Shown: positions 20,425-24,547, counted from the first letter of the stretch. The stretch: 64,000 nucleotides of DNA from Halosolutus gelatinilyticus (GCF_023028105.1 NZ_CP095491.1:2294001-2358000), one strand, 5' to 3'. Notes: generated from the sequence alone by a model not told the origin. Program-made: numbers and translations.

Positions 20425-20847
20425 ATGCCCACAACGTCCACAGCAGACGGCACTCCAGGAACCGACGACCCGATCGTCGAAGCGTACGTCCTCGGGGTTC
20501 GCATCGTCGACGTCGACGGCGCTGGCGAACGCTACCGGTTCGAAGCACCAGATCACGTGGGAGTCGCGTTCGAGGACCTCTCGGATGCGCGGCTATACGC
20601 CGACGTCTACTTCGATGTCAACGGCTTCGTAGAGGAGGGAACCGGCGATCGCGGCGTCCCGCCGGAGATCATCCAAGGCGGCAAGGACACCCTCGCCGCC
20701 TACCTCATCACGCGCCCGTGGGCCGACGTCAACTGGGTCGCGTCCTTCTACGGGGCCGCGCCCGAGGAGATCGAGCGGTACGTCTCGTGGGTCCACCGCC
20801 GCGCCGAAGGGATCAGGGAGACGGTCCGCGATCGCGACCTCGAGTGA
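20425..20847 (+). CDS. conserved haloarchaeal hypothetical protein
   Basis: 140 aa, acidic and soluble. After a disordered N-terminus (1-15) there is a compact region: DPIVEAYVLGVRIVDVDGAG, FEDLSDARLYADVYFDVNGF, then helices around IQGGKDTLAAYLITRPW and a terminal AEGIRETVRDRD. No catalytic motif or signal peptide. I do not recognise a named family. It is a monocistron following the mutase gene by 193 bp, and codon use is like its neighbours, so it looks like an expressed chromosomal gene. Confidence 0.6.
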   Translation: MPTTSTADGTPGTDDPIVEAYVLGVRIVDVDGAGERYRFEAPDHVGVAFEDLSDARLYADVYFDVNGFVEEGTGDRGVPPEIIQGGKDTLAAYLITRPWADVNWVASFYGAAPEEIERYVSWVHRRAEGIRETVRDRDLE

Positions 20848-21206
20848 ACGGCTCGCGGGCGCGACCGAGGGGGCTCCTTCTTCGGGCACCGTACCTGGTT
20901 CACCATCGGGACCGATCCATCCGGGCCGACAGCCGGTCTTTCGACCCCGATCGCCGATCGACGTCAGTAGACTTCGGCGATCCTCCGACCGGTCACCCGA
21001 ACGCTTCGGCGACGATCGATCGATCGGTCCGAAGACGGCGTCGGGCGCCGGCCGGTTCACCGACTACATATCGATCAATAGCTCTCGACTCGTCCGCCCC
21101 GATCCCGATAGCCGTCCGGTGATCACAATTCGGTTCTCGTGGAATATTATTCGACGATAGATCTATTATAAAAACTCATCCATGAAACAGGGAATATCAC
21201 GATCGC
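20848..21206. promoter_or_regulatory. 5' region with TATA box of the PhoX-like operon
   Basis: The 359 bp holds no supported gene. Its last 60 bp is AT-rich, with a TATA box TTATAAAA at 21166-21173 that would start transcription about 10 nt before the ATG at 21207, so nearly leaderless. The ATG at 21182 is too close to the TATA box to be the start. Confidence 0.5.
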
Positions 21207-23837
21207 ATGGCGGAATTTACCAGGCGAAAACTGATGGCATCGTCGATAGCCGCGGCGATCGGGACCGGTGCGGTCGGTACCGCGAGCGCGCTGGACCGAC
21301 CGGACGAACACGACTCTCCGGAGGCGCCGTACGTCGAGGGAGAGATGAAACGACTGTCGACGACCGCCTTCGGTGCGGAGGTCACGGGGCCGTTCGTCTT
21401 CGAGACGGGCGAACTCCTCTACAGCCTCCAGGCACCGAGCTCCGACAACCCAGAACCGTTCGACAAGGGTGGCGTCGGCGTCATCGACGACTTCCGGTTC
21501 ACGTTCAACGGTCGGAACGACGAGTTCGACGAGATGGAGCCGCCTCGAACCGAGGGCGAACAGGGGACGGTCAAGACGGCCGCGGGCGAGTACCGGCTGC
21601 TCGTCCAGGAAAGCGATCCGATCAACGGCGGAACCGAACGGTTCGGCCACCCGGAAACGCCCGACGGCGAGGACGTCGCGGACGTCGTCGACGAGAGCTA
21701 CGTCGGCGTCGGCGGCGTCACCGACATGAACTTCTTCGTGTCGACGAACGACGACGGCACCGAAGGCTACCTCTTCACCAACAACGAAACGCGCCCCGGC
21801 GCGATCACCCGGACGCCGCTGTACCGCGACGAGGACGGCTACTGGCAGGCGGACCTCGAGAACGCCCTCGAAGTCGAGAACACCGAGGCGTTTCGCGAAC
21901 TCGGCGGGACCAGGATCAACTGTTACGGCGACCTGACGCCGTGGGAGACGCCGGTTTCCTCGGAGGAGGAGTACGGACACCCGCGGCTCAACGGGACGAC
22001 GACCGCCGGCGATATCGTCGACGAAGGAAGCGGCGTCGGCCTCCGCGGGGGTAGCGAGTTCTGGAACCGCCCGAACGCCACGGAGGTGGGCGATTCCCTC
22101 GAGGAGATATTCGGAGACGACGCCTGGTCGCCGGCCGGTATCTGGTCGCTCACCGGACTCGAGAAGCAAGCGTACTACCTCGGTGCCGAACCGGTCGACG
22201 TCGAGGACGGCGAGGACACGATCGAGCCGATCGGCGACGTCTTCCCCAACCGCTACCGGTACGGGTACAACGTCGAGGTCGCGAACCCGACTGCGGACGA
22301 TCCCGAGGCGATGGACCCGGTCAAACACTACGTTTTCGGTCGTGCCGCCTGGGAGTGTCCGGAGTTCCTGCCCGACGAACGGACCGTCTACGGTGCCTCC
22401 GACGGCGGCGCCAAGGGCATCTACAAGTTCGTCGCCGACGAGCCGTTCACGTCCTACGACGATCGGATGGACGTCCGCGGTACGCTCTACGCCATCGAGG
22501 CGACCGAGACCGGTGACGGGCCGGTCGACGAGGTCGACCTCGACGTTGAGTGGCTCCCGCTCGGCACCGCCAGCAACGCCGAGATCGAGTCCTGGATCAC
22601 TGACTACGACGACGTGACCCAGGTCGACTACCTCGAGACCCACGCCGAGACCGACTGGCAGGAGGACCTCGAGGCCGCCCTTGCGGAGGCCGACGAGGAG
22701 GTCGCCGTCAACGGCAACCAGGACCACATCACCGACGAGGAGATCATCGAGTGGGCCGAGCAGTACGAAGCGCACGGCCCCGAGGGCGTCGACGAGGACC
22801 TCCGACGGGTTCCGTTTCTCGAAACTCGGGCGGCCGCAAGGGAGATCGGCGCGACGATCGAGTTCAACAAGGCCGAAGGGATCGACGCACACGACGAGGC
22901 CGAACCCGGCGACTTCATCTACTTCGCGATTTCCTCGCTCGGCGGCTCCATGACCGACGACGAGGGCGAACTCCGGTTCGACGAGGTCGACACTGGTCTC
23001 CTCTACCGGGCCGAACTCGAAGACGACTACGACGTCTCCACCCTCGAACCGGTCATCGTCGGCCCGAACCCGAGCGACTCCGAATCGCTCCAGGACGTCT
23101 CGCTCATCAACCTCGACAACGTGATGGTGATGGAAGACGGTCGCGTCATCCTCTGTGAGGACAAGGGGAACTTCGGCCGCTCGTACCCCAACGACGCGAT
23201 GTGGGTCTACGAGCCGCCGACGACGATCCACGTCGACTCGCTGGCGGTCGGTCACGGCGCGACCGGCGAGGTCGACCTCACGCTTTCGTCGCTGCCCGAC
23301 GGACTCGCAGGCGGTCGCATCACGGTCTCGGTCGAACACGTCGACGTCGCCGAGATCGTCGACGCCAGCTACCACGACGATCTCGACCTCACAAGCGACC
23401 CCGTGATCGACGGATCGAGCGTCGAACTCCGCCTGGCCGACATCGAGGACGAGATCGGCACCGGCAGGCAGGTGACGCTGGCGACGATCGAACTCGAGGG
23501 GGTCGACACCGGGACGACTGACCTCACGATCGACGTGCACGCGCTCGACGACGACGACGGTGCGGCGATCGAGCCGGACCCGCGACCCGGCGTCGTGGTC
23601 ACCGGTCCGCCGCCGATCGGCGGCGGACCGGGCGGCGGCGGTGCGCCGACGGATCCCGACGGCGACGGGCGCTTCGAGGACGTCAACGGCAACGGCCGGC
23701 TGGACTACGACGACATCGTCCTGCTGTTCGAGTCCATCGAGGACGACGCCGTCGAGTTGAACGAGGACGCGTTCGACTTCAACGAGAACGGCCGGATCGA
23801 CTACGACGACGTCGTCGCCCTCTACGACGAGCTGTGA
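21207..23837 (+). CDS. exported PhoX-like protein with cohesin-like and dockerin-like modules
   Basis: 876 aa with a Tat signal (TRRKLMASS). The catalytic part (about 60-650) shows the PhoX/DUF839 pattern: NCYGDLTPWETP followed by SSEEEYGHP, with Cys239 in the NC position, and later the phrase GAKGIYKFVADEP. In PhoX a cysteine and paired glutamates bind iron and calcium; these residues are recognisable but diverged. A cohesin-like beta domain follows (about 670-795, from TIHVDSLAVGHGATG), then a Pro/Gly linker and a C-terminal dockerin-like module with two calcium loops, DVNGNGRLDYDD and DFNENGRIDYDD. Its stop overlaps the next start (GTGA), so it is coupled to the cohesin-like protein. Exported phosphatase or phytase-like role is inferred. 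Confidence 0.75.
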   Translation: MAEFTRRKLMASSIAAAIGTGAVGTASALDRPDEHDSPEAPYVEGEMKRLSTTAFGAEVTGPFVFETGELLYSLQAPSSDNPEPFDKGGVGVIDDFRFTFNGRNDEFDEMEPPRTEGEQGTVKTAAGEYRLLVQESDPINGGTERFGHPETPDGEDVADVVDESYVGVGGVTDMNFFVSTNDDGTEGYLFTNNETRPGAITRTPLYRDEDGYWQADLENALEVENTEAFRELGGTRINCYGDLTPWETPVSSEEEYGHPRLNGTTTAGDIVDEGSGVGLRGGSEFWNRPNATEVGDSLEEIFGDDAWSPAGIWSLTGLEKQAYYLGAEPVDVEDGEDTIEPIGDVFPNRYRYGYNVEVANPTADDPEAMDPVKHYVFGRAAWECPEFLPDERTVYGASDGGAKGIYKFVADEPFTSYDDRMDVRGTLYAIEATETGDGPVDEVDLDVEWLPLGTASNAEIESWITDYDDVTQVDYLETHAETDWQEDLEAALAEADEEVAVNGNQDHITDEEIIEWAEQYEAHGPEGVDEDLRRVPFLETRAAAREIGATIEFNKAEGIDAHDEAEPGDFIYFAISSLGGSMTDDEGELRFDEVDTGLLYRAELEDDYDVSTLEPVIVGPNPSDSESLQDVSLINLDNVMVMEDGRVILCEDKGNFGRSYPNDAMWVYEPPTTIHVDSLAVGHGATGEVDLTLSSLPDGLAGGRITVSVEHVDVAEIVDASYHDDLDLTSDPVIDGSSVELRLADIEDEIGTGRQVTLATIELEGVDTGTTDLTIDVHALDDDDGAAIEPDPRPGVVVTGPPPIGGGPGGGGAPTDPDGDGRFEDVNGNGRLDYDDIVLLFESIEDDAVELNEDAFDFNENGRIDYDDVVALYDEL

Positions 23838-24547
23838 GCGCCGATCGTACGTCCGCGGCGCTCGTCGCCGTGCTCGCGCTCGCCGCCGCCCTCGGCGCGA
23901 TCGCGAGCGGGACGGTCGTCGCGGGAGCGACCGCGAGCGCGGTCCCCGGCGAAGCGGTCGACACCGCGATCGTCGTCGACGACGCGACGGTCGAGGCCGG
24001 CGACGACGCCACGCTCCGCGTGGTGCTGACCGACGCGCCCGACGGGCTCGCCGGATTCGAACTCACGATCGCGCTCGCCGCCGACGTCGCGACCGTCGAC
24101 GGTGCCCGCTATCCCGGCGCGTTCGGAATGACGACCGAGCCGGCCGTGAGCGACGACGGACGGTCCGTCACCGTCGAGGCCGTCGATCTCGACGACGAGA
24201 TCACGGCCGGCGCGACCGGCGTCACGCTGGCGGCGATCGACGTTACGGGAACCGACGCCGGCGAGACCGACCTGACGATCGAAGCGGTGCAGGCGGACGC
24301 CGACGGGGGCGATCGGATCGCGCCGACGCTTCGAGCCGGGAAGCTGACCGTCGTCGACGACGAGGCGGACGGAACCGACGCGAGCGGGTCGACCGCCGCC
24401 GTCGCTCCCGTCGGCGACGAGTCGACCGACGCCTCGGCTGACGGCGGCTCGTCGGCCGATTTGGTGCCCGGATTCGCGGCCGACGTCGCGGTCGTGGCGA
24501 TCGGTGTAATCCTCGTCGCCGCCCTGTGGATCGAGAGTCGCCGCTAA
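23834..24547 (+). CDS. membrane-anchored cohesin-like protein
   Basis: 237 aa, GTG start at 23834 overlapping the previous stop by GTGA. Signal peptide or anchor helix at residues 8-35, cohesin-like domain at about 40-165 (VDTAIVVDDATVEAGDDATLR, DGLAGFELTIALA, GVTLAAIDVTGTDAGETDLTI), an acidic Ser/Ala linker, then a C-terminal transmembrane helix (about 213-232) and a basic end ESRR. The cohesin-like region has the same order of motifs as the cohesin-like domain of the upstream protein (GLAG; VTLA.I...G.D.G.TDLTI). The pair looks like an anchored receptor with a dockerin-bearing enzyme next to it. Confidence 0.75.
   Translation: MSADRTSAALVAVLALAAALGAIASGTVVAGATASAVPGEAVDTAIVVDDATVEAGDDATLRVVLTDAPDGLAGFELTIALAADVATVDGARYPGAFGMTTEPAVSDDGRSVTVEAVDLDDEITAGATGVTLAAIDVTGTDAGETDLTIEAVQADADGGDRIAPTLRAGKLTVVDDEADGTDASGSTAAVAPVGDESTDASADGGSSADLVPGFAADVAVVAIGVILVAALWIESRR

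Follow-up and report, generated by a model that had tools for sequence, protein, structure and literature searches.

A PhoX-family enzyme with a cohesin-dockerin cassette and a neighbouring cohesin-fold anchor protein suggest a cell-surface phosphatase station in haloarchaea

We analyzed two adjacent genes in a 64-kb window (the whole stretch of DNA under study, 64,000 nucleotides) of the 4.76 Mb genome of the haloarchaeon Halosolutus gelatinilyticus, which encode a PhoX-like exported enzyme and a cohesin-like anchor protein. Both genes, and all window features described below, lie on the + strand. Gene 1 (21207..23837) encodes 876 amino acids comprising a twin-arginine translocation (Tat) signal, a PhoX beta-propeller, a predicted cohesin-fold domain, a linker and a dockerin-like module. 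Gene 2 (23834..24547), the anchor gene, encodes 237 amino acids, in which a signal peptide precedes a cohesin-fold domain; an acidic linker then leads to a tail made of PGF, a transmembrane helix and a final RR. The GTG start of gene 2 at 23834 overlaps the TGA stop of gene 1 as GTGA. The coordinates, order and overlap of the two genes and the layout of the gene 2 product had all been described correctly in the initial annotation of this DNA; the PGF-CTERM-like tail with an archaeosortase in the same genome, the occurrence of the cassette on other phosphorus enzymes and a constant companion gene upstream go beyond it. Because the gene pair is conserved across several haloarchaeal families, its arrangement is beyond chance.

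The gene 1 product begins with a Tat signal peptide (TRRKLM...ASA, 21207..21293), which is kept in relatives, followed by the catalytic beta-propeller (residues 41-671, 21327..23219). PF05787 matched gene 1 with 72.5 bits (E 5e-20; cut-off 24), and the predicted fold aligned to PhoX of P. fluorescens (4a9v) over 405 residues with a VIA Z of 18.6. Residues C179, E194 and E273 of the P. fluorescens enzyme, which we take to be metal ligands, align to C239, E254 and E383 of the window protein, and these positions were invariant in 44 sequences. Profile and predicted fold clearly place the protein in the PhoX family, in agreement with the earlier description of a Tat-exported PhoX-like enzyme, and phosphatase activity is predicted for it.

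Cohesin-like domains had been proposed for both proteins. When the Pfam profiles named in that proposal were searched, PhoX was found clearly and the dockerin marginally, and the cohesin profile PF00963 was found in neither protein; profile searches of the PDB found no cohesin for the window domains, and a scan of NCBIfam gave no match for either protein. Therefore, we used fold searches, treating the Pfam cohesin profile as a detection aid and the jelly-roll fold as the defining trait. The AlphaFold model of the gene 2 domain (residues 45-175, 23966..24358) had a predicted local distance difference test score (pLDDT) of ~95, and its best Foldseek match in the PDB was the non-cellulosomal cohesin 2xdh of Archaeoglobus fulgidus (E 1.4e-9), followed by cellulosomal cohesins, with the OlpA complex 3ul4 at rank 2. 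VIA gave Z values of up to 15.8 for this domain, and cohesins or cohesin-like structures made up 49 of 50 among the matches listed. The enzyme-borne domain (residues 670-802, 23214..23612) also matched cohesins structurally (1g1k, VIA Z 16.0, 130 residues), and the two window domains are homologous (37% identity, E 4.5e-14). Among 33 relatives, PF00963 gave weak matches to 4, with a best E of 0.0018. The predicted structure settles the cohesin fold of the gene 2 domain, which would be expected to bind a dockerin; the proposal of cohesin-like domains was thus borne out by predicted fold and not by the Pfam profile.

At its C-terminus, gene 1 encodes a module (23652..23834) with two 12-residue calcium loops, DVNGNGRLDYDD (23679-23714) and DFNENGRIDYDD (23775-23810). 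PF00404 scored 23.1 bits against the C-terminal 71 amino acids, 22.9 bits in a whole-genome scan and 17.4 bits against the whole protein (cut-off 22.9), so that the profile support for a dockerin is marginal. The calcium-ligand positions 1, 3, 5, 9 and 12 of both loops (D at 12) were intact in 63 of the 65 distinct PhoX dockerins, in line with the two-loop dockerin-like C-terminus that had been claimed. We infer from these features that the module is type I dockerin-like and would bind a cohesin in a calcium-dependent manner.

The anchor protein ends in the tail PGFAADVAVVAIGVILVAALWIESRR (24467..24544), which reads PGF...WIESRR and contains a transmembrane helix (residues 219-236) followed by a basic end. 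TIGR04126, the PGF-CTERM model, matched 8 of 33 anchor relatives (best 2.5e-9), and a literal PGF was present in 36 of 76 anchors; all listed anchors that lack it, except the one at locus L053 (L-numbers denote loci), finish with a hydrophobic helix and basic residues. The window genome encodes archaeosortase A (ArtA; TIGR04125, 332.9 bits), which may process this PGF-CTERM-like, archaeosortase-type tail.

We surveyed a sample of 243 haloarchaeal genomes of the order. Relatives of the anchor gene occurred in 66 of them, mostly directly 3' of a gene for a PhoX protein with the cohesin-dockerin cassette, and two independent locus sets contained the same pair; as in the window, the anchor start in relatives often overlaps the upstream stop. 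The survey counted 95 PhoX genes, of which 46 had both a dockerin and an adjacent anchor, 4 a dockerin only, 45 neither and 0 an anchor only. Thus, an adjacent anchor accompanied 46/50 dockerin-bearing and 0/45 dockerin-free PhoX genes (Fisher 9e-23, a value inflated by the relatedness of the genomes). Among the four dockerin-bearing exceptions, two belong to tandem PhoX pairs that share one anchor, each being the first gene of its pair. The dockerin state changed about 8 times on the PhoX tree, and across six independent comparisons restricted to supported branches, the anchor changed likewise 5.5 times on average and never oppositely (median p 0.03). Three reading frames at these loci are split over two frames, two for PhoX (L047 3241-5911, L104 2803-5630) and one for an anchor (L075 8633-10011), and represent pseudogenes or assembly errors. 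PhoX and anchor genes are present in the culturable Haloarcula and Natrinema.

Four dockerin-free PhoX proteins (L083, L084, L085 and L087) carry a C-terminal membrane tail of their own, with a literal PGF in L084 and a PGF-like motif in L083 and L085. The genes L083-L085 are nested beside dockerin-bearing PhoX genes, and L087 stands outside that clade. In L083-L085, this looks from the sequences like the replacement of one anchoring device by another. The enzyme-plus-anchor layout suggested by the initial annotation is therefore favoured by the joint appearance and disappearance of dockerin and adjacent anchor, with some relatives using their own membrane tail instead. In a mirror-tree analysis, the partial r was 0.63 between enzyme cohesin and dockerin and 0.42 between dockerin and anchor; the latter correlation supports a shared history of dockerin and anchor, in which binding and gene linkage are not separable, and is not proof of contact.

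A search of 84,980 species genomes for the cohesin-dockerin cassette returned 296 relatives, and among the best 79 of these 296 loci the cassette was found on several other enzymes. It is carried by PhoD (L136, L149, L150, L151, L152, L155, L178, L181, L187), by proteins of the 5'-nucleotidase type (L154, L182), by a choice-of-anchor propeller (L122, L134), by a GDPD with its own anchor (L143), and by large SNase/DUF4350/GIFT proteins with their own adjacent anchors (L157 2100-5570, L158, L160, L169, L175, L072), which are possible surface nucleases. In the tree, the cassettes of PhoD and GDPD fall within the radiation of PhoX cassettes. No anchor gene adjoins the PhoD, 5'-nucleotidase and choice-of-anchor loci, and the PhoX/anchor pair generally lies elsewhere in the same genome, as in Haloarcula vallismortis (L130/L136), Halorientalis pallida (L116/L122/L178), Halorientalis persicus (L123/L154) and Halovivax sp. 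KZCA124 (L113/L151). In the 243-genome sample, the pair was held by 4 of the 5 genomes with anchorless cassette enzymes (p 0.005); the remaining genome is a draft, and its contig stops ~390 bases downstream.

The surroundings of PhoX genes point to phosphate. A dockerin-free PhoX paralogue in the window genome (L089 3851-5989 on the - strand; C1 1069491-1071473) lies beside pstA-pstB-phoU, and the PhoX gene with the cassette in Halegenticoccus soli lies beside phoU-pstB-pstA. A TATTATAAA element is located ~43 nt 5' of the window PhoX start (21164..21172) and is kept in most relatives listed; such a box, ~35-45 nt before the start, is common to most PhoX genes, and a similar form precedes several PhoD-cassette genes. 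The window genome contains only 10 copies of TATTATAAA, two of which precede genes for secreted phosphoesterases, namely the window PhoX and, at a like spacing (42 nt), a Tat-exported GDPD. Phosphate regulation through this box is suggested by its placement; since no clear copy was found upstream of pstS-type genes in the window genome, its reading as a phosphate promoter stays a lead.

A gene for a companion protein of 140 amino acids (20425..20847) lies just upstream of the window PhoX gene, and the paralogue at L089 has its own copy. The companion belongs to no known family, with no match in Pfam, NCBIfam or the PDB. A relative adjoins PhoX in 100 of 102 loci, either upstream or downstream and with or without the cohesin-dockerin cassette, and was found in 87 of 88 PhoX genomes, and vice versa. 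Because it has no visible signal peptide and always stands beside a Tat-exported metalloenzyme, the companion may be a dedicated PhoX maturation factor or Tat chaperone.

Altogether, we consider it probable that PhoX and the anchor form a cell-surface phosphatase station, in which a dockerin-cohesin tether would hold the enzyme at the cell. PhoX would fold in the cytoplasm, probably with its metal cofactor; after export by Tat in the folded state it would be released, having no anchor itself. Its dockerin, with calcium, would then bind the cohesin of the co-translated anchor protein, whose C-terminal PGF/transmembrane tail is predicted to hold it on the exterior of the membrane, possibly after processing by archaeosortase A. 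The enzyme would stay at the cell, where Pst transporters could capture the phosphate released. Since every PhoX with the cassette also has a cohesin, this domain may serve as a docking place for additional dockerin enzymes, either another PhoX or, in different species, PhoD, 5'-nucleotidase or GDPD. The linking of copies in chains through the shared cohesins, which the initial annotation also predicted, is possible.

A wider form of this idea is a haloarchaeal 'phosphatosome', in which PhoX, PhoD, 5'-nucleotidase, GDPD, nucleases and the choice-of-anchor propeller share an interchangeable cassette and assemble, as in a cellulosome, both with one another and on anchors that have a single cohesin. 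We regard this as a tentative proposal, somewhat less likely to be right than wrong.

Several observations weigh against the tethered station. PF00963 is silent on both window proteins, and the dockerin score lies just at the Pfam cut-off. TIGR04126 does not match the window anchor, and about half of all anchors are without the literal PGF. A search of the window genome for a second enzyme with the PhoX-type cassette found none. Finally, a clade of Halegenticoccus, Halocatena, Halogranum and Halalkalicoccus has kept PhoX with cohesin and dockerin without an adjacent anchor; the anchor is therefore not strictly needed, and the coupling is strong rather than absolute.

This last clade, which retains both modules, also favours a different partner for the dockerin, namely the cohesin of PhoX itself, bound in cis or between copies to give oligomers or chains that the gene 2 protein would only cap or terminate. 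An enzyme cohesin accompanies every PhoX dockerin examined, and the mirror-tree correlation of these two modules exceeds that of dockerin and anchor. However, the stronger correlation is explained by the physical linkage of the modules within one cassette; anchor adjacency tracks the dockerin across the PhoX family, and direct membrane tails stand in for the cassette in L083-L085, which makes binding to the own cohesin an unlikely principal role. The loops might instead bind only calcium for stability, or a substrate, with the cohesin-like neighbour functionally unrelated. EF-hand profiles match the gene 1 C-terminal module as well as Dockerin_1 does, and haloarchaeal dockerins have been described as substrate-binding (PMC10963439, PMC13260240). 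We consider this account very unlikely, given that the neighbour has a cohesin fold, that the presence of the dockerin is tied to anchor adjacency, and that other haloarchaea have multi-cohesin proteins among dockerin enzymes.

The nature of the enzyme was weighed in the same way. Lactonase and DFPase propellers scored as high as PhoX in VIA (Z 19.6 vs 18.6), as would be expected if the propeller were another PhoX-superfamily member or a lactonase- or phosphotriesterase-like esterase displayed for another nutrient. However, these propellers aligned over ~275 residues vs 405 for PhoX, the Pfam PhoX match is clear and the aligned Cys and Glu residues are invariant, and both the Pst/PhoU neighbours and the sister cassettes on PhoD, GDPD and 5'-nucleotidase point to phosphorus. 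A function other than phosphate release is, in our view, quite unlikely, and the phosphatase station remains the preferred reading.

Other cohesin and dockerin proteins were observed in the course of this work. The window genome has another pair near 1.655 Mb of C1, in which the gene for an S8 subtilase with a Pfam-positive dockerin and a cohesin (L008 7510-11037, - strand) is followed by that for a 292-amino-acid protein with a Pfam cohesin and an LPGF tail (L008 6586-7464, - strand). We rejected this pair as part of the PhoX system, since its dockerin and cohesin are different and are not detected by profiles of the PhoX pair; judged by its sequence, it is perhaps orthogonal. A third membrane-tailed cohesin protein (L009 6579-7349, - strand, near 3.659 Mb of C1; PF00963, 36.7 bits) is encoded next to a DUF7350 protein, and no dockerin was seen among its neighbours. 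Scaffoldin-like haloarchaeal proteins have two or three cohesins (L173 3876-5582, L197 7626-9272, L194 3782-5842, L200 10822-13269) and stand amid dockerin enzymes (GH5, GH9 and malectin-domain proteins), for example in Haladaptatus sp. DYF46 and Halopiger goleimassiliensis, in contrast to the substrate-binding reading of haloarchaeal dockerins.

Previously, archaeal cohesin and dockerin modules lacked a clear role outside cellulose (PMC9012536). An enzyme-anchor pair that is conserved and was repeatedly gained or lost suggests a concrete one, which is to hold enzymes that release phosphorus close to the cell in brines, and the haloarchaeal cell surface may carry a kit for harvesting phosphate. 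Such a complex, if it forms, would be a natural multi-enzyme display system that works at near-saturating salt. In literature on PhoX with dockerin and on haloarchaeal cohesin and dockerin, we found no account of the PhoX/anchor pair; the coverage was partial and does not settle priority.

Among known systems, the closest precedent is a non-cellulosomal pair of Archaeoglobus fulgidus, AF2375/AF2376, which work by Bayer in 1999, Peer in 2009 and Voronov-Goldman in 2011 is said to have described: adjacent genes, of which one reportedly encodes a cohesin and a dockerin and the next a cohesin. The cohesin structure from this organism, 2xdh, is the top Foldseek match of the window anchor, and the cassette search found a related Archaeoglobaceae pair (L164), whose partner is a repeat/propeller protein and not a phosphatase. 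We know of no PGF-CTERM anchor or set of phosphorus enzymes described for the A. fulgidus pair. With the anchoring scaffoldins of cellulosomes (C. thermocellum OlpA/SdbA), the window pair shares the enzyme-borne calcium-loop dockerin, the surface-anchored cohesin and the cohesin fold; unlike a cellulosome, the window locus lacks a multi-cohesin scaffoldin, a cellulose-binding module and a glycoside hydrolase, its enzyme itself has a cohesin, and its anchoring tail is of the archaeal PGF type rather than SLH. We therefore rejected a cellulosome as the identity of this pair, which has one cohesin per protein and a PhoX as its enzyme.

From P. fluorescens PhoX (PF05787; 3zwu/4a9v), a similar Tat-exported propeller with aligned Cys and Glu residues, the window protein differs by its C-terminal cohesin-dockerin cassette, its anchor gene and the constant 140-amino-acid companion. 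In anaerobic methanotrophic archaea (ANME), dockerin and cohesin proteins are thought to decorate the cell exterior; there, the dockerin partners are commonly ABC substrate-binding proteins and scaffoldin-like proteins have up to 5 cohesins (PMC9012536), whereas the dockerin partners described here are predicted phosphatases with a single-cohesin anchor. A PhoX-family enzyme with a probable cohesin-dockerin anchor is a new form of a known archaeal cohesin-dockerin theme.

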